From Chloroflexota bacterium (GTDB lineage Bacteria > Chloroflexota > Dehalococcoidia > Lucifugimonadales > Lucifugimonadaceae), in assembly GCA_009838175.1 (NCBI GenBank), contig VXSB01000028.1:37921-101920 (forward strand): DNA of 64,000 nt, read 5' to 3'. The notes below the pieces were generated by a model that was not told where the DNA came from, searched no databases, and saw only the letters and a list, made by a program, of their open reading frames with translations. Both the position numbers and the translations under genes were made by a program. The first letter of the stretch is position 1, and each line of letters starts with the position of its first letter. Of this stretch, positions 21,761-47,364 are shown in pieces.

Positions 21761-22371
21761 GTTTGAACCTCCTTGTGTGATGTCATGGGAAGGATCGATA
21801 CGGGTTCAACCCTTCCCAGCATACACCCTGACGCCAAAGTTGTGGCATTGCGATAGGAGAGTGACCTGTCCCAAAAAGTTGCACCACTCGCTATGTTGGT
21901 CTGTGGGGCGCTCGTGCCCACGAACGTGCCTATAACGCATCCTGACGGTCTAATAGAACATAGGGAGAGGCGCGAGATACCGTTTTACGCAAGTAGATGA
22001 ATTCGGTCTGGAACAGCCACCACCGCTTGCAGTAGATACCGCCATATTCGACCGGACTGGTGAACCTCGGTTTACTGTAGGCAGAACCGTGTTCGAATCG
22101 GTTTTCGAGCTTTGAGTAGCTGCGGAGTCACGTTGCCAAACGACCCTCGAGTGCCGGACAATAGGCATCCAATTTCGTGATGATGTGCACAATTTGAGAC
22201 GATTTGGCGCTGTTCCACGCGTCTGCGTTGCCTGTCGCACGCCGACGAGCGAAGCAAAACCTAGGTATCCGATTTGGGACGTCGACTCGCGCCACGGGTT
22301 TCTGTTGAATTTGCTATCCCCGAAAAGCCGAACCGCGAGCCGATGGCGTTCACGTCATGCTGTGACCGCAG
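21761..22371. other. Non-coding stretch with a dispersed repeat copy
   Basis: 611 bases without a convincing gene. It contains the first copy of the 60-bp repeat (22057-22116). Near 21863-21880 the string GACCTGTCCCAAAAAGT resembles ends of some insertion sequences, but no transposase or second end is found. Confidence 0.5.
22057..22116 (+). repeat. 60-bp dispersed repeat, copy 1
   Basis: Starts CTGGTGAACC and ends GAGCTTTGAG. It differs from copy 3 (38317) at about 6 of 60 positions without gaps. All three copies are on the same strand. The centre has an imperfect palindrome around TTCGAA and a potential stem CGGTT/AACCG. A weaker shared tail GAGNARCYGYSGRGT extends about 15 bases further. 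Confidence 0.8.
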
Positions 22372-28115: not shown

Positions 28116-30179
28116 CTACCGCATGATTACGCTGGCTAGGTTATTGACCAATGGACCGGACGTGCCGTATGGAGTCCAATCCGCAACTTCAGGCCTAATG
28201 ACCACAATGGTCGGGAGCACCGTGTACGGCGACACCAACATCCAGTGGGTAAACCAGTCCTGGATTTCGATATTGGTCTGGACACGTTGCTCGTACGTGG
28301 TGCCTTCAATGTCGAGGTTTTCAAGTGCCTTCTTGTAGATCTCGTCGGGCCACTCCAAGCCTTCGTTGTAACCCGCGGACGGCCATCCACAACATATCCT
28401 GGCGTCGGGCAAGAACCCACGGCCAATCGTCTGCATCCAAGGGATCTGTTTCTGACGGTTCACGAGTCTCGGACGCGCGGTCCGGTAACCGGTCTGATCG
28501 AACTCGACCTCGCAACCAAGGGCGCGCCAGAACTGACCAATCGCCTGGCCAACGTCGAAGTTCATCGCACGATCATTTGCGATGTGCATCGTGAAGTTTC
28601 CGCATTCTCCAGTCCTCGACTCGGCAATGTACTGCTTAGCGAGTTCCAGGTCGTAAGGAATAAACCAGTCGTCCTTCCACAGCGGGTTCCCAGGGTGAAC
28701 GTCGATGCGGGTATAAGCTGCCCATCCAAATCCGCCCTGCGCATCCCGCAAGAGTTGTTCGCGATCTACTGCCATCGCCAGTGCCCAGCGATACTTTCTT
28801 GCTTCCTCCATTGAGGCTTCGTCGCTCGGGTCGCCGATCCAGGGATGATCGTCGTCCGGCAGGAATCCTTCTCGTTGGTTGATCGCACCGTGAGTGTCCT
28901 CGGTCTCTCCGGTTGCCGGGTGCGTAGTCGCCCAGAAGTTGCCCGCAAACAACACCGTTTGCGGGTTTCCTGCCCCGACCTCTCTGGCCCACGAGTTGTC
29001 CACAGCCTCCAGCGCCGGTACCGCGAATCTTGGTGCCATTGGAGCCATGTGGATCTCGCCTACTCTGAACGCAGCGATCTGCGTCGCCGGTTCAGGCATG
29101 AGCACCCAACGCACCGAACTGACTTTCGGAACAATGCGATAGTGCTCTTCGAAGGGCTCGGCGAGTATGTGATCGTCTGACACCCACTCCACCGCATTCA
29201 ACGGGCCGGTACCGACCGACGTGGTAAGTGCGGAGTTCTCGCCTCGTTCATCATAAAGCCTCTTCGACACAATCACGGGTGTGCCGCCGCCCACGTTGCT
29301 GAACGCGGAGGCCCATGTCGGCAGGAGATCCTGCAAGTCGAGGCGAACAGTCTCGTCATCAATCACGTTCCATCCGGAATCTTCCGTCGAATTCCAGGCC
29401 ACCCATTCTCGAATCTGTGGGCCGCGGGTTGAGCGGGTTCCTTCGCTCATCACGCTTTCGAAGCTCCAAACGACATCTTCGGCGGTTACTCGTCCCCAAC
29501 CCTTATGGAACATCACATCGTCGCGCAGGTGGAACGTCAGCGAACTCAGATCCTCTGCCAGATCCCAAGACTCTGCAATCCCCTCGTTGTACAGGCTGTA
29601 GTCACGGTTGACCAAAGGTGGATCCACGTGTGACGCGTGAAGTAATCCTTCAAACATGCCCATGGCTTGGAACGTCTCGACCTGGAAGTTCATGAACGAA
29701 GGCACGAATATCGGCGGCGGTATCAGGTTCACCCCGAGGACAAGGTCTTTGTTCTCGGCGGGCACTATCTCCTGGCCGGCGGGGCGCGGCGTCGCGGTGG
29801 CAATGACCTGCCTCTCGACCACCACAGTCGCAACGACTTGCTTCTCGACCTCTACGACCTTTTCGACCTCGACTTCAACCGTCTCGACGACCTTTTCGAC
29901 GCGGGTCACCTCTTTCTCAACCACAACGGTCTCTACGACCTTCACAGTCTCACCGGCGACCTGTTTTTCGACGACGACAGTCTCTACAACCCGCTCGATT
30001 TGGGTGACCGGTTTCTCGACGACAACGGTCTCGACGACCTTCTCTACCCGGGTCACCTCTTTCTCTATCACAACGGTCTGCACCACGGTCTCGCCGCCGC
30101 AAGCGACGGCGGCAGCAAAGGCAGCGACAAGAACGATTGCCAATGGAGTGACCTTGCCTATTCGTAATACGTTAATCAT
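28116..30179 (-). CDS. ABC transporter substrate-binding lipoprotein (family 5) with long V/E/K stalk
   Basis: Extracytoplasmic solute-binding protein of the peptide/nickel family. The open frame begins at 30266, but ATG 30179 places the signal MINVLRIGKV...AAVAC at the N-terminus with the lipobox Cys at residue 27, giving 687 aa. Residues about 30-128 are a low-complexity stalk repeating units of the form VEKxVTxVEKVVETVVVEKxV, ending in ATPRPAG. The SBP_bac_5 domain follows (LTFHLRDDVMFHKGWGRVTAEDVVWSFESV near the start of the domain). The stalk type is characteristic of Chloroflexota lipoproteins and probably holds the binding domain away from the membrane. First gene of the run to 22372. 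Confidence 0.9.
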   Translation of the reverse strand: MINVLRIGKVTPLAIVLVAAFAAAVACGGETVVQTVVIEKEVTRVEKVVETVVVEKPVTQIERVVETVVVEKQVAGETVKVVETVVVEKEVTRVEKVVETVEVEVEKVVEVEKQVVATVVVERQVIATATPRPAGQEIVPAENKDLVLGVNLIPPPIFVPSFMNFQVETFQAMGMFEGLLHASHVDPPLVNRDYSLYNEGIAESWDLAEDLSSLTFHLRDDVMFHKGWGRVTAEDVVWSFESVMSEGTRSTRGPQIREWVAWNSTEDSGWNVIDDETVRLDLQDLLPTWASAFSNVGGGTPVIVSKRLYDERGENSALTTSVGTGPLNAVEWVSDDHILAEPFEEHYRIVPKVSSVRWVLMPEPATQIAAFRVGEIHMAPMAPRFAVPALEAVDNSWAREVGAGNPQTVLFAGNFWATTHPATGETEDTHGAINQREGFLPDDDHPWIGDPSDEASMEEARKYRWALAMAVDREQLLRDAQGGFGWAAYTRIDVHPGNPLWKDDWFIPYDLELAKQYIAESRTGECGNFTMHIANDRAMNFDVGQAIGQFWRALGCEVEFDQTGYRTARPRLVNRQKQIPWMQTIGRGFLPDARICCGWPSAGYNEGLEWPDEIYKKALENLDIEGTTYEQRVQTNIEIQDWFTHWMLVSPYTVLPTIVVIRPEVADWTPYGTSGPLVNNLASVIMR

Positions 30180-30721
30180 GACTGTGCCCTGCTTTCTTCG
30201 CGCAACATCGAACGGAATCAACCACTGCATGCGATCCAAGATATGGATTCCAGCCACATGATACACCGTAACGACGAAACTCGCCTATCTGTGTCGGGAC
30301 ATTGACATGTCGCTCGAGACTCGTTTCACCACGCTTATTGCGAACTTACATTGGAGAATCTCTCCTCGGACTCTAAGGTGCCAAGGGTGGTTTCAAATCG
30401 GAAATACCCGACGAGCACCATCGCATTGATCTGTGAAGGGCTTTACGAACGGTGTCGAGGCGAACAAGCGATTAGATCCAGAACGGCCGAAAGTCGCGGA
30501 ATCCTGGCGTCGCCCCTTGGAAACCGGCGCTGGTGAACCACAGTTCACTATAGACAGAACCGTTTTCGAAACGATCATCGAGCTTTGAGGAGCCGTCGGG
30601 TATAGTTGCATTTGATCCGCCAAGGTCGCATTTTGGAAACATTGAATTGCACTGGTGACCTGATTTCAGGGTTGTGGTGGATTCCATTGAATTTTGGTTG
30701 TTGTCGGGTCTAATTGGTGGC
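30180..30721. other. Intergenic region between transporter operon and defence cassette
   Basis: About 540 bases with no credible gene. It contains the 60-bp repeat copy 2 (30530-30589) and presumably the promoter of the substrate-binding protein operon (minus) near 30190-30300. It marks the left edge of the first defence cassette. Confidence 0.5.
30530..30589 (+). repeat. 60-bp dispersed repeat, copy 2
   Basis: Same start (CTGGTGAACC) and end (GAGCTTTGAG) as the other copies, ungapped, about 7 of 60 differences from copy 3. In this copy the inner palindrome is stronger (CGTTT/AAACG around TCG). It lies 133 bases beyond the 3' end of the DUF3883 gene, so copies 2 and 3 bracket the defence cassette as direct repeats 7.8 kb apart. 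Confidence 0.8.
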
Positions 30722-31666
30722 TTAGTTCCTGGCGATTCGCCACTGCACGGGAGTGGCATCCCACTCACCTGTCGTAATTTTGGCTCGTATGTCAGAAATT
30801 ACGATTGGGAAACCGGCCGCTCGGAGCGAAGCGTATTCGTTCGCTTGTTCCCTTTGAAGATCGATACTGCCCCAAAATTGCACCTCGTAGTTCGATCCAT
30901 ATCGTGCGGCTTGATTCCATTCATTCTGAGAAAGGAAGAACGCCGGGCATGCTGCGCCGCTTCCCTTCACTTCAATCCGACGGTATGGCGCAGTGGTTCG
31001 ATCTTCGATATCCCAGCCGAAACTGTCGGAGTCTTGGGAAACCCAGGCGATTGACGAAGGATTCTGAGTTATGCTTCGTTCACGCTGGAACGAATAGAGC
31101 TCGGCCCGTTGACCGATACGACGTCTATTGCTGATCCATGAGGGTTCGCTCGCTTCGACCATGCGAAGCGCCCAAACAGTTTCGAGTTCGCCAACTACAT
31201 TCGATGGGACGCAAACCAACGGCCTTGACTGGAATTCGGGCCAACGAGACAGGAGCCCAACAAGTTGTGGCGCGACGGATTGCGCTATTCGAGGTAAGCA
31301 GATAAGATCCCCTTCTGCATCCATGTTGCCAATCTCAAGCAACGCGCGAGCTTGATCCGAGAACAATCCGGCTCGAATAATCGTCAAGCCAAGAGGTCGA
31401 TAGTCACCTGACCGGAGGCCACGTACAACTGGATTGCCCGAATTAGCGCGCCTCACTGAGTCCTCGTCGACGTGGAACAGGTTCAGCGATGCGAGTAAAT
31501 TCAACAGTTGCTCTGATTCTTCGTGGCTCCCCCCGCATTTTCTCCAAATCCGCCTGACCGCGGTCTCCCTAGGTACACCGGGTACGTTCGCACCGATTGT
31601 CTGCAACGCAGTTGCAAGCCGGTCCAACCGAGGGCCAGTGAGCCAAGTGCCCGCTGGAAGCGTCAT
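30722..31666 (-). CDS. DUF3883 nuclease-like protein of a defence operon
   Basis: A 314-aa protein. The N-terminal 180 residues have no recognised domain. The C-terminal part (about 180-290) matches DUF3883: Glu189 in GQRAELYS, Asp219 in GWDIED, Glu232-Val-Lys234 in RRIEVKG, then FFLSQNEWNQA and YEVQFWG, a PD-(D/E)xK nuclease arrangement. The ATG overlaps the helicase stop by 4 bases (ATGA). Last gene of the methylase-ParB-SNF2-DUF3883 operon; by position and motif it is the likely DNA-cutting subunit, which is inference. Confidence 0.75.
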   Translation of the reverse strand: MTLPAGTWLTGPRLDRLATALQTIGANVPGVPRETAVRRIWRKCGGSHEESEQLLNLLASLNLFHVDEDSVRRANSGNPVVRGLRSGDYRPLGLTIIRAGLFSDQARALLEIGNMDAEGDLICLPRIAQSVAPQLVGLLSRWPEFQSRPLVCVPSNVVGELETVWALRMVEASEPSWISNRRRIGQRAELYSFQRERSITQNPSSIAWVSQDSDSFGWDIEDRTTAPYRRIEVKGSGAACPAFFLSQNEWNQAARYGSNYEVQFWGSIDLQREQANEYASLRAAGFPIVISDIRAKITTGEWDATPVQWRIARN

Positions 31667-33666
31667 TCTAAAGGTGCCTCTTCCCCTAACAGATAACGCA
31701 TCAATGCTTCGAGATCATGGTCATCGCCGTCAGCCTCGGTCAATGGATCGGCGTCTTGGCCTATCGGTGCGAGTTCAGCGCCTTCCAAGAGACGCCGCAT
31801 TCTTTCTTCTTTTCGTAGCAAACTGGCTTCAACGAGGTGGTCAATGGTCGGCAGACCATCTATCGTCGACCTAATGATGTGGATCGAAACGTTTGCGTCC
31901 GACGAAAGTCCGAGGCGATGGATCCGGTCGATAGATTGCAAGAACAATGCACAATCGTAGGTCCGGTCCAGGTAAATAGCATCGTGGCAACCATGGTGGA
32001 GCGAGATTGACTCAGAACAGGACGCTGGATTCGTTACAAGTACTGCAGCACCTTTCACGCGCAGAAATCGCGCGATGACCCTTTCTCGTGTTTCGCTTTC
32101 TTGAGGGCGCTGGCCGCCAGGGCCCGGGCTATCGTATTCGGCCTCGTCGCCAACTGGTAATCTCCCATCGACTTGAAAGACCGGGACGGAAATCCGCTTC
32201 CGAACGTACACGGTGAACTGGTCGAGATTCGATATGAAATTGCTCCAACACACCACTTTTCCGCCACCCTCAATTATCGGACCCATAATTTTTAGAGCGA
32301 CTTGAAATTTGGCCGGAGTTTCCCGCTCCTCATACGTAGCCAAACGTTCCATCAATGTCGGGTTGGGGTTCTCCAATTTCGGCAAACGATACTGACGGTC
32401 CGAGCCATTGAGGGTGTTCGGGTTCGTGGCCGCTTGCAAAAGACGGATTGGTCGCCCACGCTTCAGAGCGTCGATCTTGTCCGTCCAATCGTCCGCTTGT
32501 TCGATCCGACGTCTAAACCCGCTCGCGATCAAATCGTAAATGTCTTTTTGTGTGTCTTGTAGATCGGCATCGTGCCACATTACCTCGTACGGTCGCAACC
32601 CGAGCGCCTCTTTCGGAGTTCTCAACATGAAGGGTTGAATGCGCAGCAGCACTTGCCCGAAGTCACGTTCGACGTCGGCTGCGAATTTATCTCGTGGTCC
32701 AGTTAACTCGGCGGCGGGCCAAAGAACATTGAGCTGGCTGTATAAGTCGCGCCCACTGTGCGGCATCGGAGTTCCTGAAAGGATTATCCGCACTCTTGCG
32801 TGTCTTGCGATTTCTTGTAGAGCCGGCGCCCACACGCCGCCGTTGAAACGCTTGATGCGGTGCGACTCATCCACGACCAACATCGTTTTGAATGAATCGC
32901 AAAGTTCAGTTAACCGCAAACGATCTGAGGCTGATGTGGCATAGCTAAGAAGCAATATTTGGCGCGGCTGCACGGATTGGTAGATTTCGTGGCGCATCCT
33001 GCGGCTGCCTCGTACTCTGCGGGTGTCAACTATCCCATCGAGCGCGGCTGCAGCCTCAGCTTCCCACGGTTGGAAACACGCTAAGGGGCCGACGACGACG
33101 AGTAGATCGACCGTGTTTGCTTGGAAATGCGCTGCCGCAATGGCGAGCGTTGTGGCTGTTTTCCCAGAACCCGGTACGGAAAAATTGGCCGCGTTAACGG
33201 CCGTCAACCCGTGTAACACCCCGCGTTCTTGGTGATCGAGGAGTCGACGCCGGGTTCCGTCCCAACCAAATTCCGCTAGCCTTTCAAGCACCTGGGCGCC
33301 CCGTAACGGGGAGTGCCCAGAGCGAAGTTCTTCGGCAGCTTGGTGGGTTCGTTGGAAACTACGCTTACGTTCCAACGAGCGTTCCACGGCTACGCGGACG
33401 GATCCGGTCAGGATCACTGACCAACCTTCCCTTTGTAGAAACGTGTGGACCCTGACTGCAAGGTCATCCATCGTGCCTTGACGTGGAAAACAGCGCCAAC
33501 CGTCGGTTATCGGCCTCGAACCGAGCATCGAGCCAAACATCATGCGGGCTCTGCGGTTGGTTGTGAGATTCGGTTGAATGACGACTAATTCGTCACCATC
33601 TACCTCGATTTTGACGTGGCGGGAGTCCACAATCCTCAATACATTCCCTTCGTGCCGTCCGCCCAA
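31663..33666 (-). CDS. SNF2-family helicase/translocase of a defence operon
   Basis: SF2 SNF2-like ATPase, up to 667 aa. The N-terminal domain (1-140) is unassigned. Walker A VPGSGKT lies at 164-170, DESH at 265-268, LSGTPMPHSGRDLYSQLNVLWP near 300, and C-terminal helicase motifs KVVCWSNFISN, VTNPASCSESI and QSIDRIHRLG near 490-590. ATG 33666 overlaps the ParB-like gene; a TTG at 33639 lying inside the ParB-like stop (TTGA), preceded by GAAGGGAA, is an equally good start and would give 658 aa. Probably a DNA translocase that couples recognition to the nuclease. Confidence 0.88.
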   Translation of the reverse strand: MGGRHEGNVLRIVDSRHVKIEVDGDELVVIQPNLTTNRRARMMFGSMLGSRPITDGWRCFPRQGTMDDLAVRVHTFLQREGWSVILTGSVRVAVERSLERKRSFQRTHQAAEELRSGHSPLRGAQVLERLAEFGWDGTRRRLLDHQERGVLHGLTAVNAANFSVPGSGKTATTLAIAAAHFQANTVDLLVVVGPLACFQPWEAEAAAALDGIVDTRRVRGSRRMRHEIYQSVQPRQILLLSYATSASDRLRLTELCDSFKTMLVVDESHRIKRFNGGVWAPALQEIARHARVRIILSGTPMPHSGRDLYSQLNVLWPAAELTGPRDKFAADVERDFGQVLLRIQPFMLRTPKEALGLRPYEVMWHDADLQDTQKDIYDLIASGFRRRIEQADDWTDKIDALKRGRPIRLLQAATNPNTLNGSDRQYRLPKLENPNPTLMERLATYEERETPAKFQVALKIMGPIIEGGGKVVCWSNFISNLDQFTVYVRKRISVPVFQVDGRLPVGDEAEYDSPGPGGQRPQESETRERVIARFLRVKGAAVLVTNPASCSESISLHHGCHDAIYLDRTYDCALFLQSIDRIHRLGLSSDANVSIHIIRSTIDGLPTIDHLVEASLLRKEERMRRLLEGAELAPIGQDADPLTEADGDDHDLEALMRYLLGEEAPLE

Positions 33667-34955
33667 TCAATGATCTCCGAGAGCATGCTTTTCGCTTCAT
33701 TTCCCCGTGGTCCACGCAACGTTTCCGATAGGCGTTCCGATGCGCTATCTAGGATGCGGACCCGGCTGATTATCTGCTCAAGGGTGTCGACGACTTCGAG
33801 TTGGCTAGCCTCGTAGCCATCGATTGCGTTTTTGATTCGCCTTTTGACCTGTTCCTGCGGATAACCGGGAGTCTGGATAGGCGTTGCTTGTTCGCTCTCA
33901 TCTTCGTATTCTTCTTCGTCCAAATCAGAAGAAAGGTCAGGATCGCTTATTCCGCGTGCCCCAGACTGCTCCCATTCCTGTTCATCTTGCGCCACTTGAA
34001 TCACGAGACGTTCGTAACGGTCGCGTTCTTCGAGGAACATCTTCCTGATAACGCGGATATCTCCGTGAGGATTGCCTGCTCGGACTGCGGCAAACATCAA
34101 CTGCAGCATGTCTGTCAAATCGTCTGGGTAGTCCTCCTCGACCCAAGACATAATCTTTCCAATGTCACGGAACCGCTCGACCTGCCTAAGCAGTTTGTGG
34201 TACTGTCCCGTCGCATCCGCGTCCGCAAGGTACGCATCCATGTATTTGATAGCACGCAATTGAATTGTTGCGTAGGATTGGCTACCTCCCGCAACTTCTT
34301 GCAGCTCTCCTGCAACTCTGACAATTGATTCGGGATCGAACCAGTCGATGCTTGAATCGATTGCCGCCTGACGAAGCGTCAGGAGCAGATTCATGTCCGT
34401 GTAGCGGACCTTGAAATCTTCAGTCAGTTGCTCCCGTTGTTCCATTTCGAACACGTCGTGCTCATCAATGTTGTCGGGGCGGTTGGGATTGAGAACAACG
34501 GCTTCAACCCACTCAGTCCCAGTAATGCCGTCAAGCCTTAACCGCTTGAGCATTGCGAGACGCCTATTGCCATTGCGCACTGTCCCGTCTGGTCTGATCC
34601 AAAACGGTGTAGCCTGTTTACGGCGCATCCAATCAGATTTCAGCAGCTCGTAGTCTCTAGACGGCACTCCTTTAACAAGGTTGCCGTCGACATCGCACCC
34701 AGCGTCCAGCAGGATTGAAATCACGGAGATCTCGTCGTCTTCGGAGTTCTCCGGATCGAGAGTGTGACCGAGTTTCGATTCCATCAACGTCCGTTCAGCG
34801 GCGAATCGACGATTGTCAGCGTTTAAGAGCAAAGCGTCGACGGGGACCCGCTCGACGTTAAAGTCACGCCATTGGTCCTTGCACCATAATCGTACCGTCC
34901 GGTCCGTCGGTTCGCTTCGAGTTTCGATGATTTGCTGTCGCTGGGTAGCGTTCAT
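33636..34955 (-). CDS. ParB/sulfiredoxin-fold DNA-binding protein of a defence operon
   Basis: A 439-aa protein from ATG 34955, which overlaps the methylase stop by 4 bases and has GGAGAAG just upstream; the longer frame to 35069 is unlikely. The N-terminal ParB/Srx-like core has VERVPVDALLLNADNRR near 35-50 and VRNGNRRLAMLKRL at 126-139, the box that binds nucleotide in ParB-like proteins. A helical middle is followed by a very acidic stretch near 340-360 (DLDEEEYEDESE) and a helical C-terminus. Likely specificity, loading or scaffold component; the activity is not known. Confidence 0.75.
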   Translation of the reverse strand: MNATQRQQIIETRSEPTDRTVRLWCKDQWRDFNVERVPVDALLLNADNRRFAAERTLMESKLGHTLDPENSEDDEISVISILLDAGCDVDGNLVKGVPSRDYELLKSDWMRRKQATPFWIRPDGTVRNGNRRLAMLKRLRLDGITGTEWVEAVVLNPNRPDNIDEHDVFEMEQREQLTEDFKVRYTDMNLLLTLRQAAIDSSIDWFDPESIVRVAGELQEVAGGSQSYATIQLRAIKYMDAYLADADATGQYHKLLRQVERFRDIGKIMSWVEEDYPDDLTDMLQLMFAAVRAGNPHGDIRVIRKMFLEERDRYERLVIQVAQDEQEWEQSGARGISDPDLSSDLDEEEYEDESEQATPIQTPGYPQEQVKRRIKNAIDGYEASQLEVVDTLEQIISRVRILDSASERLSETLRGPRGNEAKSMLSEIIDWADGTKGMY

Positions 34956-37012
34956 ATCTTCTCCAAGGTATTTGGCACGCCGAAACGCTCCGACGCCATA
35001 CGGATGGCTAAATTCATGCTGGTACGATCCGAACCTCGCACGAAAAGGGGGTGTAATCGTTCGATCCACTCGTCCGCGGACGCGATGGTTAATTCGGTGT
35101 TCTCACATACCGAACGTTTTCGACAAACGACGATTATGTCCCATTCGCAGTTGCCGTCGGCGGCGTGTAGCCCCATATGCGAGTCAGTCTTCACTGGCCA
35201 CAACGCTGTGACCAGCAATTGGAGATCATCTAGTGCAACGCCGATCGCTTCCCAAGCGTCTCGAGTCGCGGAGTGATAGCTAAATGCGAGCGGACAATCT
35301 GGATTTAGCGCCTCTACCATCGGTTTGACCTCCTTGGCCAAAGCGTGGCCGAAAGATCCGATCGGATCGTGTCCATTTGGTGCCAAAGGGGTTCCGCCAA
35401 GTTCGTTATTGGTCCACCAACCGCGATAAAACTCCGACAGCTCGCTGTACGCAATGTTGTCGAAGTAAGGCGGATCGAATATGCAGATATCTTGAGGCCG
35501 CGGAAGTGTTCGATCGATCGCATGTGCTGGTGCGCACAAGACATCGACTTCTTGAACACCGGTACTATAATCGGCAACGAAGCTTCGGACTTCACCTGAA
35601 GTTGTATCCCAACAGTGTCGCTGTATAACCTTGGTCGAGGATCGTTGCACGCGATCGAAATTCCGTTTCAAAGTTCCCCGCCCGGCAGAAACGTGAAACG
35701 GGTTCAGTTCGACCGGCATCGCAGGTAGCGCGTAACCCCTGAGGCTGAACAACGGGGCTAGGCGACCGTAGTCGCGAGCGTAGCTGCAAAGACGGTTGTT
35801 CGTGGCTAGTGCGTTGGACAACGCCAGCCGGAGTGCTTGATTTACGCGAATGTCTGCATCCAGATTTTCTTCGAGCCATCTGAAAGCGTGGCCAAACAAA
35901 GCGATCTGTCGGTCCGTGAACAGTTCACGGAGATGTTGTACCCCGTAACTTACGGGTCTGGCGTCCACGCGGTCCCGTTCAAACTCATATTTGGGGATGT
36001 CGATCTCGTGTTTGTGCTTGATGAGGTACCGTCTGGCATCGTCGAGAAGCTCAACATCAATTGGATCGGGCTGTCTGATCCTCCGCGGCGATCCATCGCG
36101 GGTTTCTTCAATCGCAAGGAGGCGACGAGGAGCATTTCCTGATTGGAGTTCGGCGTGGTTAGATCTATGTCCGCAGTGCGGGCAACTGTATCCTTTTCGC
36201 GTGTAGGTTCCGCTATAAAGCGGATACCGCTTCCCGCAACAATGGAGCTGGCTCCGGTCACTCTGTTCGAGACCATGAATTCCAAAACAATTGGGGCAGA
36301 ACGCTGTTATTGCCCATTTCCGAACTACCGAACCGCCTTTGCTGGAACGGCGCGCTAAAACGAGATCCTTATAAAGGGTGCCCCCCTGCCCGCAACCAGG
36401 ACAAATGACTTCGTGAAGGTAGAAATAGTGGACAGGGGTCCATTCCGCATCGGGATCGAAGAAAAGATGGCCGAGTTTTCGTCGTAGGAATTGGAGCAGC
36501 AGGTTCGCGGCCCGACTAAACGCGTGTTGATCGACTGGTTCAATCTCATGTTTGATTATCTCGACGGCCAACGGATCTACATCAGTGCCGGAAACGCTGG
36601 CTCCTAGCCTCGCCGCTTCGACCAAAGTGGAACCGCCGCCTGCGAAGGGATCGTGCACGTGAAGCCCGTTCAATGCCGGCTGTGAACTCTCGAACAGACG
36701 CCAATATGTCTCCGCGTCAACGTCACCTGGGAGCGAAGCTGCCAGCAACAGCCCTCGCATGACTAACGGCGGACGGCGCGCCCACCAACGATGAACCGAG
36801 TACGCCGGGTCCCTTGATCGTCTGCTGGCTTCGGCGACTAAAGACAGTTCTCTGAATGGCAACGCCTGTTCAAGCAGTGTTCCTTTGCGCAAAATCCCTT
36901 CATTGAAGAAACGCTCGCAGTCTTCCGTTCGGCGACCATTTAGGTGTTCCGTAGGAAACACTGCGTTGGAAGTGTCAGACGACCCTGAGGTTTGTGGCAG
37001 GTAATGATCCAA
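34952..37012 (-). CDS. DUF1156-like adenine-specific DNA methylase with zinc-ribbon cysteines
   Basis: DNA methyltransferase, up to 686 aa. The N-terminal DUF1156-like box SVHRWWARRPP is near 72-82, the SAM motif DPFAGGGSTLVEAA at 121-134, and the catalytic DPPYFDNI at 513-520. The large insert between them holds cysteine pairs at 204/207, 239/242, 258/259 and 277/280, typical of zinc ribbons that read or hold DNA. The upstream start is TTG 37012; a shorter start near residue 45 is possible because family members begin just before the RWWARRP region. Probably marks host DNA (N6-adenine or N4-cytosine) so the downstream nuclease spares it. Confidence 0.82.
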   Translation of the reverse strand: MDHYLPQTSGSSDTSNAVFPTEHLNGRRTEDCERFFNEGILRKGTLLEQALPFRELSLVAEASRRSRDPAYSVHRWWARRPPLVMRGLLLAASLPGDVDAETYWRLFESSQPALNGLHVHDPFAGGGSTLVEAARLGASVSGTDVDPLAVEIIKHEIEPVDQHAFSRAANLLLQFLRRKLGHLFFDPDAEWTPVHYFYLHEVICPGCGQGGTLYKDLVLARRSSKGGSVVRKWAITAFCPNCFGIHGLEQSDRSQLHCCGKRYPLYSGTYTRKGYSCPHCGHRSNHAELQSGNAPRRLLAIEETRDGSPRRIRQPDPIDVELLDDARRYLIKHKHEIDIPKYEFERDRVDARPVSYGVQHLRELFTDRQIALFGHAFRWLEENLDADIRVNQALRLALSNALATNNRLCSYARDYGRLAPLFSLRGYALPAMPVELNPFHVSAGRGTLKRNFDRVQRSSTKVIQRHCWDTTSGEVRSFVADYSTGVQEVDVLCAPAHAIDRTLPRPQDICIFDPPYFDNIAYSELSEFYRGWWTNNELGGTPLAPNGHDPIGSFGHALAKEVKPMVEALNPDCPLAFSYHSATRDAWEAIGVALDDLQLLVTALWPVKTDSHMGLHAADGNCEWDIIVVCRKRSVCENTELTIASADEWIERLHPLFVRGSDRTSMNLAIRMASERFGVPNTLEKI

Positions 37013-38267: not shown

Positions 38268-38323
38268 TTGCTAATTGCTCGCGCTTACATATCAATTTTA
38301 TCGCGCATATGTAGCACTGGTGA
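38268..38323 (+). repeat. att-like direct repeat, left copy
   Basis: 56 bases that match 58698-58753 without gaps at 48 positions (about 86%). The shared core includes TGCTCGCGCTT and TTTATCGCGCA, and ends in TGGTGA. The right copy abuts the 3' end of tRNA-Lys, so the pair brackets the 20.4-kb second defence island. Confidence 0.65.
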
Positions 38324-38376
38324 ACCACGGTTTACTATAGGCAGAACCGTTTTCGAATCGGTGATCAAGCTTTGAG
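38317..38376 (+). repeat. 60-bp dispersed repeat, copy 3
   Basis: Starts CTGGTGAACC and ends AAGCTTTGAG; the best consensus match of the three copies. It lies immediately after the att-like repeat and about 330 bases beyond the small membrane protein gene, forming the right-hand direct repeat around the methylase-nuclease cassette. Confidence 0.8.
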
Positions 38377-39358
38377 CAACCGCCGAGTTCGTTCCTCGTC
38401 CCGCCCGGTTTCTCTGTAAGACTTCGGACACCTTCTCCTAGTAACACGAGACAGAGTCGAACATAGGCGCACTCGACCGGTTCGACGCGACCAAATCCCG
38501 ATAGAATTTGGCTTCGAGCCGATCCCACGCCATCGGACACGAGACCAGACATGGAGCAGCTTCCCGACGAATGTGAGTGACGTCGAAATCCTTGTTCCCC
38601 GTTCGGCTAACGCATCGTGAACGTTAGGTGAACGGGTCACGGTGCACTCAAGTTGCTCCAGGTCGGGAATGCCGGAACAGCAATCCCGGTGGTCCGCTAC
38701 GTCGGCGTTTTCGGAATGGTTGTACAGGCAGAACAGGGTGCGGCGGATACCGCCACTCCGTATACGACCAAGATTCTTCACGTTCCCCACATCCTAGGCT
38801 AATTCCAAACGGTTTAGGACGCTCGCAACGAATAGCCCCCTCACTGTCCGGCTCAATCTGTTAGTCCGTGGACCTCCGCCATGTCTGTCGAGAAAACTGA
38901 CGCTTGACGGCGCCGCTGCCCAACATTCGCAGTTCTTAAAATGCACGAACCTCTCAGGTACTTGTGGGCTTTGGGCTTGAAGCCGGTACGCAGTCGGATA
39001 ACACCGCTTCTGCGGGTAGTCGTCCTCCTTGATGAAGATCTGTCGTCGATCCCATAGACATCACTGCGCCAATTCGCGTATGAATTCGCGTGGAGTGACG
39101 GCTGCGCTGAAGTAAGTTGGCACCGTCTCCTAGGTGCGGCTTTGGCAGCCGATAAGACTGCGTAAACTCGTAGTCGGTGGATCATGGGCATCAATTTAGC
39201 CAGGCGAACCCATCCGCACGGCGTGTTATTCTCCTAAAGGAGGTCCACCATCTGCGCCCCGGACATCGATCCTCAATGGGCGGCAATCGCATTGAGCTGG
39301 GTTGTGACGTAGAAAGTCGGGTCATTAACAATAGAGTGACTAGCTATGAGGGTTGTGT

Positions 39359-40305: not shown

Positions 40306-41697
40306 TCAGACAGTCTCCAACCTCGCAGCAGTTGTACCCGGGTTGAATGGCGCTACATCGCTATACTCCACGGCCTGGCGCAGCTCCAGCGAGCGCAGGC
40401 TGCCATCGATTACTTCGTATCGGTGTCCGCCCAATCCCATCCTAAGAAGTTCGGCGAGGACAACAGTCGCGGTCACGGCACCGACGAATGACGCCCCAAC
40501 AGTCCGCCCGGCCAATGTAGTGACCCCACAGTCGTCGAGCCCTTGCTCGGCTAGCGCGCGGTACGCCGGATTGTTAGCCACTGTGTGCCCATCGGGTTGG
40601 TGTCCCTGCGCCGCCCAGCGAGTCCTTGCGGACCGCCGCGCTGGAAAGGTATGGGTTTGAAATGCAAGGTATTCCTGGGTGCCGGCACCGAGACCAGCTT
40701 CAATGACTCGGTCAAAGCCAACATCTTCAACGTATGCTCGGGCAAGAGCATTGTCAACGCCACACAGGGCAACACGTGGCTCGTCTCCTGCAACCTTAAA
40801 GTCGTCCGCGAACCGACGCTCCACTATCGACGTGCTGAATCCACGAGATTCACACCAGAGAGCCATAGATCGCGTCTTCTTCTGCCCGAGCATTGCGCGA
40901 GTTGTAAGCAGTGATGTACTCTCGTTGGCTTCGACCAGCTCATCGAAGTCCTGCAGTACGAGATGGACGTCCTTAGGAGAATGGTATGGGAGTAGACCGA
41001 GCGTCCAAAGGAACGCCTGACCCAAGTGGCCGAGCCCGATCAACCAGACACTTGCCGGCAGTCTCTCTATCTCCGGTCCTTCGCCACTATCTTTGAGCCA
41101 ACTCACGTCCCTGTCCGGTTGCCACAGTGACAGTCCTATGTCTCGGCGTCCCGCCAAGGCGTTATCACGACGCAAAAACTGAAACGCCTCGGAAACCCCA
41201 AGTGCCCCTGCGAGGACGCCCGCGGGGACGCACTCCCTCCGCTCGGGTAGGCGAAGGTCTTGGTATAGCGGCGCAACGCCGCCACGCCAGCCATCGAACG
41301 TTGCCCTCACAGCAAACTCCGAATCGGTATTCGGCGCTGAATCCCCCCCAATCACGAGGCGCGGAACTTCAGGAGAGCAGTCCGCGATCACCCCCTTCAG
41401 GTCCACAACGGCATCTTCTAAGGTACGGCAACGGCCCCAAGGCACCAGCAGAGGCACATCGAGAGTGCCCTCGACAAACACTCCTCCCAGAAAGCTGCGA
41501 CGGCCCGTGTTTACCGCCGTCAGCACGGCCGCCTGCATCGTTGCGGAATGAGCGATACCACTCCCCACCACGATGCCGAGGCGATAACTGTCAAAGAGGA
41601 TTCTTGCCTCTTCGAGGTTTGCCACCTCTCCCGTATCGAGGGCCAGCTTGAGGTGTCTGTGTAACTGATCCGGTTCAACTACGGCGTTCTTTTTCAT
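40306..41697 (-). CDS. E1-like (ThiF-fold) activating enzyme of ubiquitin-like operon
   Basis: Predicted to adenylate the Ubl C-terminal glycine and form a thioester. ATG 41697 overlaps the JAMM gene stop by 4 bases and has AGGAG 8 bases upstream, giving 463 aa; the longer frame to 41754 is less likely. The N-terminal 205 residues are a family-specific domain. The ThiF domain has GLGHLG at about 221-226, a nucleotide-ribose motif DFDELVEANEST, and near the end DDCGVTTLAGRT...FVGA, whose Cys (about 390) is the best candidate for the catalytic cysteine. Cytoplasmic; acts with the E2-like and Ubl proteins upstream. Confidence 0.85.
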   Translation of the reverse strand: MKKNAVVEPDQLHRHLKLALDTGEVANLEEARILFDSYRLGIVVGSGIAHSATMQAAVLTAVNTGRRSFLGGVFVEGTLDVPLLVPWGRCRTLEDAVVDLKGVIADCSPEVPRLVIGGDSAPNTDSEFAVRATFDGWRGGVAPLYQDLRLPERRECVPAGVLAGALGVSEAFQFLRRDNALAGRRDIGLSLWQPDRDVSWLKDSGEGPEIERLPASVWLIGLGHLGQAFLWTLGLLPYHSPKDVHLVLQDFDELVEANESTSLLTTRAMLGQKKTRSMALWCESRGFSTSIVERRFADDFKVAGDEPRVALCGVDNALARAYVEDVGFDRVIEAGLGAGTQEYLAFQTHTFPARRSARTRWAAQGHQPDGHTVANNPAYRALAEQGLDDCGVTTLAGRTVGASFVGAVTATVVLAELLRMGLGGHRYEVIDGSLRSLELRQAVEYSDVAPFNPGTTAARLETV

Positions 41698-42218
41698 GCC
41701 CATACTCCTGTATAGAAGAAGCGTCCCAAGCCGACTGCGCTGTGACTGCGCCACTTATGACTTCCTAGATATTCGTAGACACCCATGTCGCGGATCCTGA
41801 AGTCAATTGCGAAGTTCGGTACGATCAGCGCCACGTGGCCAGGTTGTGCGATCATCGGATTGTCCCGGTCAAGCGAGCTCTGCCGCGCTGGCCCTAGGCC
41901 ACCGTGCGTATGCAAGTCACCGACGACATTCAGTCCGGCCTCCCGACAGACCTGCCACAGTGGTCCGAATCCTGCACCGTCGAAGACCACGATGCCCGAA
42001 TCAAGGCAGGTTGGGTCGAAATCGTCGTAGTAGGCGAATTTCAGCACGCGGCCACGTAGGCCATCTCGGTAGCCGAGCAGAAACGCCCCGCTCTCGTGGT
42101 GTCCCTCTCCGCGGCTTGCAATCTCAGCGAGACCTTGCTGCCAAACTTTCCTGGGACAGCTCAGGCGGTGCTTAGGCGCCGCGAGGGCCCGAATAGTCGC
42201 TCGAATTGAGAAGGTCAT
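41694..42218 (-). CDS. JAMM-family metallopeptidase (deubiquitinase-like)
   Basis: Zinc isopeptidase of the JAB1/MPN+ fold, 174 aa. The JAMM set is complete: Glu42 (HHESGAFLLG), His103 and His105 (GDLHTHGG) and Ser114-x-x-Asp117 (QSSLD). In bacterial Ubl operons such enzymes process the Ubl precursor or remove it from targets. The start at ATG 42218 has GAGGAT just upstream and overlaps the E2-like gene by 47 bases. The stop overlaps the E1 start. Confidence 0.87.
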   Translation of the reverse strand: MTFSIRATIRALAAPKHRLSCPRKVWQQGLAEIASRGEGHHESGAFLLGYRDGLRGRVLKFAYYDDFDPTCLDSGIVVFDGAGFGPLWQVCREAGLNVVGDLHTHGGLGPARQSSLDRDNPMIAQPGHVALIVPNFAIDFRIRDMGVYEYLGSHKWRSHSAVGLGRFFYTGVWA

Positions 42219-42660
42219 GGACGATCCTCAGGTAATGTGTAATGTCACTTTCAGGTGACCAGATCATCGAGGGGTGCTGTGTCCGCCAAGCGTCGTGTCC
42301 CTCGATGGAAAGGCGATCACAAGGCAAATAAAGGCACTGACCGTCTTTCCATCCGGGATTAAAGACAAGGGGCACGCGTCTCGTTCCACTCGGCCAGTGT
42401 TCTGGCGGAAGTGGGATATCCCGGTCAGCATCCCATGGTTGCGCTGTCGGAGGCGACTGCGGGTAGTTTGTGCACTCGAAGCGCAACGCGTATTCGGATG
42501 GGGCACTCACCCGGTCGGCCGCCCGAATGGCCATTAAGGCGTAGGACCACTCTATGGACAGCAGGCGCCATCGCCCGCGGTCCAACCCGCTTTGGAACGG
42601 GCCAGCTGCGAGGTGGGACCGGAACACCCGCTCGTCGACTCGTATTGGCTGCGTGGACAA
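42172..42660 (-). CDS. E2-like ubiquitin-conjugating-fold protein
   Basis: A 162-aa protein with the UBC-fold pattern. A central YALRFECTNYPQSPP is the beta-strand and YPxxPP turn of E2 enzymes; QCLYLPCDRLS follows with a cysteine (about 118) in the catalytic position, and a C-terminal IWSPESDITHYLRIVHDLL matches the E2 helix after the active site. The start is TTG 42660 with GAGGGA upstream, 3 bases after the Ubl stop. Inferred to receive the Ubl from the E1 and conjugate it to targets. The motif match is clear but distant from eukaryotic E2s. Confidence 0.75.
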   Translation of the reverse strand: MSTQPIRVDERVFRSHLAAGPFQSGLDRGRWRLLSIEWSYALMAIRAADRVSAPSEYALRFECTNYPQSPPTAQPWDADRDIPLPPEHWPSGTRRVPLVFNPGWKDGQCLYLPCDRLSIEGHDAWRTQHPSMIWSPESDITHYLRIVHDLLNSSDYSGPRGA

Positions 42661-42663
42661 GGC

Positions 42664-43185
42664 CTATCCCTCAACCCGCTGATTGGGCGCCAGATCAAAG
42701 CAGAGCGTCCCATCCGGGATCTTCACGAGGGAGCCGATGTGAACCTCCCCATCGGGCTGGTCTCCCGAATCGCACAGCTTGAGCACGTGCTCTGCTGCAT
42801 CAACTGGCGACATGTCGTACTGGTCCTTCGCGACTGCCCACTCCTGCACCCACTCGACTGTCGCCGACGGCGGAAAGAAGCCCTTCTTCTGGTCTTGGTT
42901 GAAGTTGACCGTTACTTCCACTACCTTGCAGCGATGGATGTGCAGACGGCTGCGGGAATCCAGGCCGACTTCGTCGACCTTGACGTCCAGTTCCAAGGTA
43001 ACGTCGGTGTTCTCGACGAAGACGTACACCTCTGATTCTTCGGGCGAGCTCAAGCCGCAATCGCGGGCAAGTTTGACGATGTCCGCGATCGTGTCCTTGG
43101 GATGCGCCTTCAGAAGTGTGATCTTGGGGATACCCTCCCCCTGGATGAAGAGTTCCATCTGGTCCGGCGCACTAAGCTGAGTCAT
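42664..43185 (-). CDS. Tandem ubiquitin-like protein
   Basis: 173 aa from ATG 43185 (AGAGAGG upstream); the frame runs back to 43245. Two beta-grasp-like halves: residues about 10-85 (VYVFVENTDVTLELDV, then LDSRSRLHIHRC) and 88-170 (VVEVTVNFNQDQKKGFFPP, a strand-turn-helix, then LVKIPDGTLCFDLAPN). The protein ends in VEG with a C-terminal glycine, as needed for E1 activation. First gene of the Ubl-E2-JAMM-E1 operon. Domain assignment is by pattern; the fold would need structural prediction. Confidence 0.72.
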   Translation of the reverse strand: MTQLSAPDQMELFIQGEGIPKITLLKAHPKDTIADIVKLARDCGLSSPEESEVYVFVENTDVTLELDVKVDEVGLDSRSRLHIHRCKVVEVTVNFNQDQKKGFFPPSATVEWVQEWAVAKDQYDMSPVDAAEHVLKLCDSGDQPDGEVHIGSLVKIPDGTLCFDLAPNQRVEG

Positions 43186-43328
43186 TCGATTATCCTCTCT
43201 CCCACAGCGGTGGGACTTTCTAAAGTGGGCGACACCCCCAGACAAAATGGGCGTCTTTTTATGCCTCTACCAAGACAATCGCAGAAAAGGCGGCCGACCG
43301 GAAATGGACGCGCCGGCAGCAATGGCGT

Positions 43329-46300
43329 CTACGTGTCCTCACCCACCGAGCAGATAAAGTAGTGAGGACAACGGGGACAGATGCGATCACTAGGCCGGGG
43401 CAAGAAATCCTGATTTAGGATGCCTCTGATCGCTTCGTTGTAGTGGTTCAGGCGAGTGTTGATGGGTCCAGGTTTCAGATCGATCGGGTCTACTTGATCG
43501 GCCGACAGATAACGTACCTGTATACTCCGCTGAACACGTGGCTCGGCAGCCTCGGCAGCCGCTACATACAGTGCATAAATGTCCTTGCCCGCTTCGCTCT
43601 TCGTTGGTCGACCAGTGCGGAGACGTTCAACGATCTCGGATCCATCACTGCGAACCTCGACGTGGTCGGGGGTGAAACGAATGCGACCGAGCGGCACTGA
43701 CACCTCCCACGTTGGCCTTGTCGCGGAACCTTGGGACGCTAATGGCTGTCTTGCAGCCCGTTCCACCAAGGTTACGGCCGAGGTGCGATACAACTCCCGA
43801 TACGGATGCTCACCCGGCCCTTGCTCCTCCCAGACTTTTCCCAGATAAGCGACTGCGTCCGCTTCATCTGCAGGATTTCCTGAGGCGCGTTCCTCCGCCA
43901 TCCACCGCAACACACGATAGACACAGCGGTGAAACGCTACGTACCCGGAATCCTCGCGCCTCCGACTCAGCCCAAGGACACTCTCGTAGAAGTACTGACG
44001 TGGGCAACGAAGGTAGATTTCCAGATCTTCAACGGCGAAGGGCTCGTTCGCTGGCGCGGGATCAGCTGCGACGACCGAGGCGGGTGTCATGGATGGCCAA
44101 GTGACAGGGCCAGAGGGAGCGCCAGGCAACAGACCTCCGATCGTGTTGAGCAGATCTGACGCGTTGCTGTTCTGGGTACCGTACCTGACAGCACGAGAAA
44201 GGCAGAGGACGTCTTTCGCTCGGGACAATCCGACGAAGAAAAGGCACTCCTCCTCTTCTTCGTGGTCGTCATAGTTGGGCACGATCATTCCTTCCGGAGG
44301 CGGGCACGGCCGTGGCTGACGCCGGACTGGGAAGATTCCACGGCCCAGCATGGGCAGATATATCGCTTGAAACTCAAGACCTTTACTCGCATGCACGGTA
44401 AGCAGCCGTACCGCGTCAATCCCCTCCGCCCACGTCGGAAGCTGCCGCAGCTGCTTTTCGTCGCCGTAAATCTCAAGTCGACGGATGGTTCGAAGCAGGC
44501 GGAGCTTGGAATCAATCGACTCACTAGGAACTCCTGCCTTCTGTTCATGGGCGAACTGGAGGATCTGATATAGCGCCAGCAAGCGCTGCCTGCCTGCCAC
44601 TGATTGGTTGCTCAGGTAGGCATCGAGATAGCGGCTTCGTTGGAACAAATAACCTGTGAGCAACGTCCACGGTTTGACATGCCTCATGCCACTCAGATGA
44701 CGTGACAGAAGAGCAATGCCCTTTTTTCCTCTTGCCGAGATAGATGCTGCCGGAGCGGCCAGGTCCAAGGCAGCAGGGAATGCGACATTTCGATCGCGCG
44801 CCAATTTGAACAATTCGAGCACGTCCTGCAGCGGGATCTTGTACTCGGGAAAGCGAGCCACGCGCACCAAACCCCGGCCGTCAGGTTCGCATGCGAGAGA
44901 CAAGAGCGACAGCATGTCGCGCACTTCCGGACGCTCAAACAGGTTGCCTAAGTAGAGAATTGGCACTCCCAAGTCCTGCAACGCGGCCCCGATTCTTCCA
45001 AGCCGAGTGTGTGAGCGACATAAAACCGCCTGCTGGCTGTATGGGATTCCAGAGTTCCGTTGTCGCTCAATCTCCCGCGCCATCCCGTCTGCCTCGGCTG
45101 CAAGGTCGGCTGCAACCTCCATCAAGACCCGCCCTCCGGTATCCGAACGCTTCGGCTCCCAACGGATGAAACTCGATCCCAGTCGACTCGCTCGCATGTC
45201 AGGTGCCAACCCCGCGAAGACATCCAAGATTGCTGGTTGGGACCTGTAGTTGTAATTGAGCGACATCAACTTGGCACCGGGAAAGTCATGCTCGAATCGC
45301 CGCATGTTTGAAGGGGCGGCGCCGCGGAACCGATAGATCGCTTGGCGAGTGTCGCCAACCACCCACAGACCTGCCCCTGCCCCAGCCAGTTCCTTAAGCA
45401 GGAATCCACTTGCGTAGTTCACATCTTGGTATTCATCGACCAGGACGTGCGGATAGGCGCGCCGCAGCGTGTTTCGCACATCGGTGTGGGTCCCGAGCAG
45501 AGCGACGGCTTTGTAGATGAGGTCACCGAAATCGAGCAGATGATCTCGTTCAAGAGCTTCCTGGTACAACCGGTAAACCCGCGCGACTTCTAGGACTCTC
45601 TCAGCCGCCTCCTTTTCCTCTGAAGAGGACGCTAGTTGAAGCATGCGATCACCGAATGCTGCATACTCTCCTGGACTCACCAATTCGTCCTTCGCCCTTG
45701 AGATCGCACTCATAATGTCACGGAGGTAACGCGCCGGGTCGTGCAAGTCCTGATAGTGATCCAACTCCAGTTCGGGGAGCATGCTCTCCAAGAGGGCAAT
45801 CGAGTCAGAGGGATCCAATACGCTGAGACGAGGCGGGAGCCCTAGATGATTGCCGAATTTCCGCAATAGCTCCAGGCCAAAGGCATGAAAGGTTCCCATC
45901 CAGATACGGGATGCATCTTCCGGTCGAGCCTTCGCCACACGGGAACGCATCTCCTCGGCCGCACGGTTCGAGAACGTCAGCGCGAGGATCGTTGTTGGCG
46001 AAACATCGCGTTCAAGGAGAAACATGATCCGACTCACCAAGGTGTGGGTTTTGCCTGTTCCTGGTCCTGCCTCAAGGAGTAACGGTCCCCTTGGGGAGTG
46101 AACAGCTTCTTTCTGACTGGGGTCCAGTTGGTGGACGTTCTGTTCGCCGAGCGATGTGTCGGCGGCAGGGACGTCCGGCGTGAGCAGCGCCCGCGCCATC
46201 TGCTGCAAAACCATTGTTTTGGGAAGTCCCAGCTTCTCCGCAATGTCAATCGGGCTGACTCTGTCTGCCTCGTACCATTCCCGCAAGAAATCGGTGGGCA

Positions 46301-47362: not shown

Positions 47363-47364
47363 CT

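Follow-up and report, generated by a model that had tools for sequence, protein, structure and literature searches.

A conserved ParB-SNF2 gene pair with exchangeable methylases and nucleases: a candidate restriction-type defence cassette in a Chloroflexota bacterium

Four successive minus-strand genes, for a DUF1156-like methylase, a ParB-fold protein, an SNF2-family ATPase and a DUF3883-type nuclease, occupy positions 30722-37012 of the window, by which we mean the whole 64,000-nucleotide stretch analysed here. A preliminary description regarded them as a coupled unit centred on the methylase, one that resembles DISARM and DUF1156-based modification systems but was not recognised as a named system. 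The locus raises the question of which of its parts are constant, whether the set is indeed unnamed, and what it may do in the cell.

Gene layout and junctions

Direct reading of the open reading frames agreed with the preliminary description on the position and strand of all four genes, which are transcribed in the order methylase, ParB, SNF2, nuclease. The first gene (34952..37012, minus strand) encodes a DUF1156-like N6-adenine (DPPY) DNA methyltransferase of at most 686 aa; its start at TTG 37012 is uncertain, since none of the candidate starts has a convincing ribosome site. It is followed by the genes for the ParB-fold protein (33636..34955, minus strand; 439 aa), the SNF2-family ATPase (31663..33630, minus strand; the frame can be extended to TTG 33666) and the NOV_C/DUF3883 nuclease (30722..31666, minus strand). 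As had been described, the methylase/ParB and SNF2/nuclease junctions are 4-base overlaps, both of which read ATGA (34952-34955 and 31663-31666). Two of the three junctions are coupled in this way, and the ParB/SNF2 junction differs. Here the ParB gene terminates in TATTGA, and SNF2 has three candidate starts: TTG 33666, giving a 31-base overlap with ParB, TTG 33639, giving a TTGA overlap, and GTG 33630, right after the ParB stop. The two starts implied by the preliminary description, with the TTGA or the 31-base overlap, do exist, but the SNF2 protein of a close relative (L007, see below) begins at the residue corresponding to GTG 33630 and aligns best with it. GTG 33630 is thus the most likely start, and the 31-base overlap probably does not mark the true one. 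Promoter and terminator scans gave counts no different from shuffled expectation.

Identity of the four proteins

The window methylase is matched weakly by Pfam DUF1156 (19.4 bits, below the cut-off of 24) and partially by PADLOC HmaB (1.2e-19) and NCBIfam DUF1156_antiphage (NF042963; 6.4e-20, far below the 1000-bit cut-off). WWARR, the SAM-site residues D121/F123/G125-G127, DPP (513-515) and two CxxC pairs are invariant in 13 relatives, and the SAM-site and catalytic motifs expected of a restriction-modification methylase are intact.

No model in Pfam, NCBIfam or PADLOC matched the window ParB protein, and its link to ParB by sequence is weak: Pfam ddrB-ParB (PF18763) matches 11 of 60 relatives, weakly, and a sequence profile searched against the PDB found only Noc, at E=0.013. 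PADLOC and NCBIfam scans of the same 60 relatives revealed no dedicated ParB model; PADLOC HNH effector models matched three members (up to 1e-20) because these carry an additional HNH-type domain. The AlphaFold2 model, built with 70 relatives (pLDDT 91.9, pTM 0.84), is more telling. Its closest PDB structures are ParB, KorB, Noc and PadC (Z about 9, residues 29-316); all of the top 14 matches belong to these four proteins (Z 7.3-9.2), and some of the alignments span about 200 residues, taking in both the N-domain and the HTH-like middle domain. The predicted structure thus has the fold of the ParB N-domain joined to an HTH domain, followed by a long helical C-terminus. R50, Q114, G124, N130, R132, E172, Y185 and R301 are invariant among 70 sequences, and R132 lies in a GNRR box, which we take to resemble the GERR box of ParB. 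A plasmid search seeded with the window ParB returned no matches. According to a 2025 survey (PMC12704722), the ParB fold is widespread beyond segregation, also as orphan homologs of unknown role, and binds ATP, CTP or GTP, the choice of nucleotide being unpredictable from sequence; the terms SNF2 and DUF3883 are absent from its text.

For the third protein, Pfam SNF2-rel_dom (PF00176) gave a match of 1.1e-13. The Walker A GxGKT, DE-H, SGTP and QSxDRIHR motifs are kept in 93-100% of 85 relatives, and GxGKT, D266/E267/H269, R581 and R584 in 99-100%, so that the protein has the Walker A, DExH-type box and arginine-finger motifs predicted for an SNF2 ATPase. Its similarity to the DrmD, DpdE and ZorD models of PADLOC and NCBIfam is weak. 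SNF2 relatives are present on 73 plasmid records and also on viral contigs.

The fourth protein consists of a winged helix (residues ~10-87) and a PD-(D/E)XK domain (~173-305). It is matched by Pfam NOV_C (PF13020, E=3.7e-10); since PF13020 also detects a plasmid homologue annotated as DUF3883, NOV_C and DUF3883 are the same domain. E189, D219, E232 and K234 are invariant across 50 sequences and form the E...D...ExK pattern of PD-(D/E)XK enzymes. With these residues in a gene of the same operon, a putative endonuclease is linked to the methylase, as in restriction-modification systems. In archaea, DUF3883 has been counted among the groups of presumed type II REases (PMC10609329), and it was described in 2013 as a novel REase domain that also occurs in fusion with SNF2, beside DUF499 (PMC3710099). 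In the AlphaFold2 model (pLDDT 90), the PD-(D/E)XK part was aligned by VIA-align with the SPARDA nuclease 9qcc (Z 8.7, 109 residues); this match is suggestive of a likeness, being a single row in a comparison dominated by winged-helix proteins, and the other rows mostly covered the winged helix alone. Foldseek with the same model gave no significant match, and a sequence profile of the nuclease gave no useful match in the PDB. Collectively, profiles, structure model and conserved residues bear out the identities given to the four genes in the preliminary description.

The ParB-SNF2 pair in other genomes

When 393 genomes of the class were searched, the close relative L007 emerged, whose ParB is 56% identical to that of the window and which has the same ParB-SNF2-nuclease order. 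The SNF2 alignment was then scanned against one genome per species, giving at least 267 relatives. The best 80 of these, together with the window and the loci L007, L008, L009 and L039, make up a set of 85 loci that was selected by SNF2 alone and is skewed to Streptomyces. Among the hosts are Actinomycetota, Bacteroidota, Pseudomonadota, Chloroflexota, Patescibacteria-type lineages, Methanosarcina, Thermoplasmata and ammonia-oxidising archaea.

ParB was found at 83 of the 85 loci and the nuclease at 56. Both always share the strand of SNF2, with ParB upstream of it (median gap -4 nt) and the nuclease downstream (56/56; median gap -17 nt); these gap lengths are approximate because the open reading frames were called mechanically. 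ParB was missing at L047, which is truncated by a contig end, and at L114. A search seeded with ParB instead of SNF2 gave three strong matches outside the window genome (L137, L138 and L039), each with SNF2 and nuclease adjoining. When viral contigs were scanned, ParB accompanied all 12 of the closest SNF2 relatives and the nuclease 9 of them, whereas among 68 more distant SNF2 loci of the same scan ParB was present at two and the nuclease at none. The association of ParB with SNF2 is therefore far beyond chance. The pairwise distances of the core proteins correlate with r 0.84-0.90 (0.90 for nuclease and SNF2), as against at most 0.12 in shuffles, co-inheritance and shared phylogeny not being separated by this measure.

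Exchange of methylases and nucleases

The methylases of these loci vary. That of L007 is of the N4/N6 type and divergently transcribed; among relatives in the phylum, L008 has a D12 methylase, L009 an N6 methylase of an Eco57I-like family, and L039 a DUF1156-like methylase located downstream. At 77 of the 85 loci, a methylase belonging to one of five families is encoded within 6.5 kb of SNF2: C5 at 44, DUF1156-like at 12, both of these at one further locus (which brings the DUF1156-like count to 13), D12 at 9, N4/N6 at 6 and Eco57I-like at 5. The remaining eight, some of them on short contigs, have no methylase nearby. Mapped on the SNF2 tree, the methylase classes require at least 11 changes, where four would suffice if each class had arisen once. 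The clade of the window SNF2 itself (five members, 100% support) contains three DUF1156-like loci and one N4/N6 locus; the core thus switches methylase chemistry. Comparison of the window with L007, L041 and L042 revealed no core region that changes with the methylase; despite their different methylases, the window and L007 show no specially divergent stretch in the core proteins. Proximity of a methylase does not prove that it is a partner, least of all at loci with C5 and Vsr.

The nuclease, too, is exchanged, NOV_C not being found at 29 of the 85 loci. In three of these (L051, L080 and L095) the ParB protein has an N-terminal HNH-type domain (Pfam HNH_2, E 0.005-0.01), and L061 has a MutH-like protein (5e-24) together with a C5 methylase. 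Of the 30 loci counted as lacking the nuclease, a set that includes L039, which does have the nuclease, and L062, which is cut by a contig end, 21 have Vsr nearby, versus 11 of 55 loci with nuclease. At many Streptomyces loci Vsr is the only nuclease nearby, and there it may serve mismatch repair. At L071 and L075, both without NOV_C, a nucleoside-phosphorylase-like (PNP_UDP_1) protein is encoded directly upstream of ParB, which suggests that the damage done by some members may fall on the cell and not on the invader. In the Lactobacillales loci L124, L151 and L153, on plasmid and viral contigs, type III Mod and Res genes are followed by ParB-SNF2, with no NOV_C, which suggests that the pair can also serve as an add-on.

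What sequence, gene order or predicted structure show are the four protein families, their invariant active sites, the near-obligate linkage of ParB to SNF2 and the exchange of methylase and nuclease. ParB-SNF2, with or without NOV_C, is the fixed unit, and the methylase is an exchangeable part; the window's four-gene set is accordingly one form within a much larger family. The set and its coupling are real, as first described, and the same gene order does recur in other genomes for ParB-SNF2 and, less widely, for the nuclease; the class of methylase varies, and it is the ParB-SNF2 pair rather than the methylase that forms the constant part.

Comparison with named systems

PADLOC 2023, NCBIfam 2026 and the open-access papers searched contained no named system with such a gene order, in keeping with the preliminary description, which recognised none, and the literature searched, mainly open-access, yielded no description of the ParB-SNF2 pair. 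The absence of DUF499 and DrmB-type proteins, first noted for the cassette, extends to the whole genome, a 2.6 Mb draft of 66 contigs that is 91% complete. A search of this draft for the DUF499 ATPase (PF04465) gave no match, while the control was positive in Thermotoga maritima, and a search for the DrmB-type MZB domain (DUF1998, PF09369) was likewise negative, with a positive control in 8 of 14 genomes.

Hma/BREX-related systems comprise a DUF1156 methylase, an SNF2 helicase that is often fused to an REase, and a DUF499 ATPase (PMC12839542). The cassette resembles them in an N6-methylase that appears DUF1156-like, in its SNF2 ATPase and DUF3883-type nuclease chemistry and in the restriction-modification-like logic proposed, but its nuclease is a separate gene, its SNF2 protein is shorter and unrecognised by Hma/BREX helicase models, and in its family the ParB subunit is constant and the methylase exchangeable among five families. 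Given that DUF499 is absent from the draft genome, membership was rejected. BREX was rejected as well: PglZ and BrxC had no match among the cassette proteins, whose best matches to BREX models are to generic helicases or methylases. With DISARM, which can use adenine or cytosine methylases, the cassette shares a methylase and an SNF2 helicase. It differs in that the window genome has no MZB protein, the cassette has no phospholipase D nuclease, and nothing in DISARM corresponds to its ParB and NOV_C proteins. The DrmD helicase model (NF038317) gave the window SNF2 18.3 bits against a cut-off of 610, and membership of DISARM was rejected on this score and the missing MZB protein.

Type I and type III restriction enzymes likewise have a methylase, an ATP-driven motor and a PD-(D/E)XK nuclease as separable functions. 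The cassette motor, however, is an SNF2 protein instead of a type I/III helicase, a ParB-fold subunit is present and no S subunit was seen; in the Lactobacillales, moreover, ParB-SNF2 comes as an addition to a complete type III Mod-Res. Such Mod-Res already has an ATPase and a nuclease of its own, an observation that speaks against a simple role of the pair as motor for a nuclease. ParB/Srx conflict proteins (GmrSD, DndB, Osa, ParB-methylases; PMC5512222, PMC12704722) share the ParB fold, an invariant arginine in a GxRR box and presumed nucleotide binding, whereas the cassette ParB has an HTH-like middle domain and an SNF2 partner, a pairing that the passages found in those two papers do not mention. 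The DREN nuclease of SPARDA has the PD-(D/E)XK domain that aligned with ours, but the cassette nuclease comes without Argonaute or APAZ and is fused to a winged helix.

Proposed function and alternatives

The motifs on which SNF2 depends for ATP hydrolysis, the nuclease for cleavage and the methylase for methyl transfer are all intact, and restriction-modification logic fits the cassette best. The preliminary scheme, in which the methylase protects self DNA, ParB and SNF2 recognise foreign DNA and the nuclease cuts, would agree with these data. On balance we favour a defence of the restriction-modification type built on ParB-SNF2, predicted to be NTP-driven, in which the pair would inspect DNA and license the nuclease. 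The methylase would mark host DNA at a specific sequence. ParB could act as a nucleotide-switched clamp that loads on DNA, its HTH-like domain perhaps giving a sequence preference of its own, and SNF2 would spend ATP to travel along the duplex or to remodel DNA-bound material. Jointly they might recognise sites that lack the modification and bring in or switch on the NOV_C PD-(D/E)XK nuclease, which would cut invader DNA unless the cognate methylation is present. In this scheme we infer that the proteins form a complex, that ParB uses NTP, that methylation is sensed, and that the cassette translocates on DNA, cuts it and protects from phage. The near-constant ParB-SNF2 linkage, the methylases nearby, the alternative nucleases, the invariant active sites and the neighbouring Bil defence operon speak for the scheme; the eight loci with no methylase nearby, the 29 lacking NOV_C, the type III Mod-Res loci and the finding of no core region specially divergent between the window and L007 speak against it. 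A bolder version, in which ParB-SNF2 is a general, as yet undescribed DNA-surveillance engine that can be plugged into almost any methylase (five families) or nuclease (NOV_C, HNH, MutH-like, Vsr, type III Res), making a new class of restriction system across bacteria and archaea, is possible, though we would not quite put it at even chances.

The pair might instead be an accessory of ordinary restriction-modification, stripping or repositioning bound proteins or limiting self-cutting, with methylase and nuclease as the system proper. Its addition to complete systems (type III Mod-Res in Lactobacillales, MutH-like protein plus C5 in L061, C5 plus Vsr in actinobacteria) fits this role. An accessory would, however, be expected to part from the nuclease more freely, whereas NOV_C directly follows SNF2 at most loci and is co-inherited with it, the methylase being the loose part, and we regard an accessory role as unlikely. 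Somewhat less likely still is an abortive, second-line module in which ParB-SNF2 senses an overcome methylase or restriction-modification system, or damaged modified DNA, and a non-specific effector (NOV_C nuclease, HNH or nucleoside phosphorylase) kills or stalls the cell. The phosphorylase genes upstream of ParB and the structural proximity of the nuclease domain to the SPARDA effector nuclease point that way, but such phosphorylase loci number only two, the SPARDA Z score is middling and stands in one row among many winged-helix matches, and the partners are mostly DNA nucleases typical of restriction.

Maintenance or competition of mobile elements, with ParB in partition or plasmid exclusion and methylase and nuclease as a selfish addiction pair, would account for the plasmid and viral copies of the SNF2 relatives, the ParB fold with its HTH-like domain, and the repeats that flank the cassette. 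It strikes us as improbable: the cassette comes without a coupled ParA gene, many of the loci sampled are on long chromosomal contigs, and no partition role is known for SNF2 or the nuclease. To the idea that the cassette is a decayed or variant form of some named system, whether Hma/BREX-related or DISARM, we attach hardly any weight. The methylase does resemble HmaB/DUF1156 antiphage methylases, and the weak SNF2 similarities include DrmD, DpdE and ZorD, but the draft genome has neither a DUF499 nor an MZB protein, the ParB subunit has no counterpart in the Hma or DISARM models, and elsewhere the same core is accompanied by methylases of four further families.

If the restriction-modification reading built on ParB-SNF2 is true, a whole class of restriction systems has so far gone unnamed because its constant subunits are annotated generically or not at all and its variable parts, methylase and nuclease, are classed with other systems. 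The orphan ParB-fold homologs of PMC12704722 would gain a concrete partner and an assay, and it would become a testable question how one sensor-motor core can work with methylases that differ in the base (adenine or cytosine) and the position they mark.

Genomic context

The cassette lies between two copies of a 75-nt direct repeat of putative role (30527..30601 and, on the opposite flank, 38314..38388, both plus strand) that are 84% identical. Further, degenerate copies are found on the same contig near window position 22057, where the copy is partial, and on a second contig (C2). Synteny with the nearest genome ends at 30166, although the contig of that genome itself ends about 500 bp past the break, and the other flank of the cassette was not found in the relatives. 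Together, the flanking repeat and the synteny break suggest an island, with the repeat as a possible boundary. A BilABCD defence operon with a UvrD-type helicase-nuclease is located about 3 kb from the cassette.

Genes adjoining the ParB-SNF2 pair in relatives

In three loci on Lactobacillales plasmid and viral contigs (L124, L151 and L153), a type III Mod-Res pair was followed directly by ParB-SNF2, and the NOV_C nuclease was not found at these loci. A PNP_UDP_1 (nucleoside phosphorylase-like) gene occupied the position directly upstream of ParB in two further loci (L071:6478-7251 and L075:6524-7297), both of which were likewise without the NOV_C nuclease. Three unnamed protein families recurred directly upstream of ParB, mostly in actinobacterial loci: one of ~242 aa (18 loci; e.g., L105:6504-7214), one of ~282 aa (5 loci; e.g., L109:6714-7562) and one of ~409 aa (4 loci; e.g., L056:6065-7294). 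Representatives of all three had no match in Pfam.

Bil operon and other genes of the window

Tandem BilD, BilC, BilB and BilA homologues, assigned by PADLOC with E values of 5.5e-172 to 2.8e-46, lie at 40306-46721 (minus strand) together with the gene for an 1130-aa protein that precedes them and combines an IrrE-like peptidase domain with UvrD helicase and PDDEXK_1 domains. The Bil genes are an ISG15-like defence operon, and the helicase-nuclease neighbour is unusual. Upstream, two ORFs of 220 and 266 aa (46718-48165, minus strand), neither with a Pfam match, overlap head-to-tail with the UvrD-nuclease gene.

At 13029-19717 (plus strand) lie two large ORFs that share a 4-base overlap. One encodes 1094 aa and lacks any match in Pfam; the other, of 1135 aa, carries an FtsX domain at its C-terminus. 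An ABC-type substrate-binding protein (28116-30266, minus strand), whose N-terminus is repetitive and of the VVEKEV type, had 27 matches within its own draft genome. The 1138-aa protein at 55066-58482 (plus strand) carries an RNase_H_2 domain alongside those of a superfamily 1 helicase (AAA_11/AAA_12).

A degenerate 75-nt direct repeat

Three copies of a degenerate 75-nt direct repeat (~22057-22120, 30527-30601 and 38314-38388) are spaced ~8 kb apart on the window's contig. One further copy was found on another contig of the same draft genome (C2), and similar pieces occur in other genomes of the genus.
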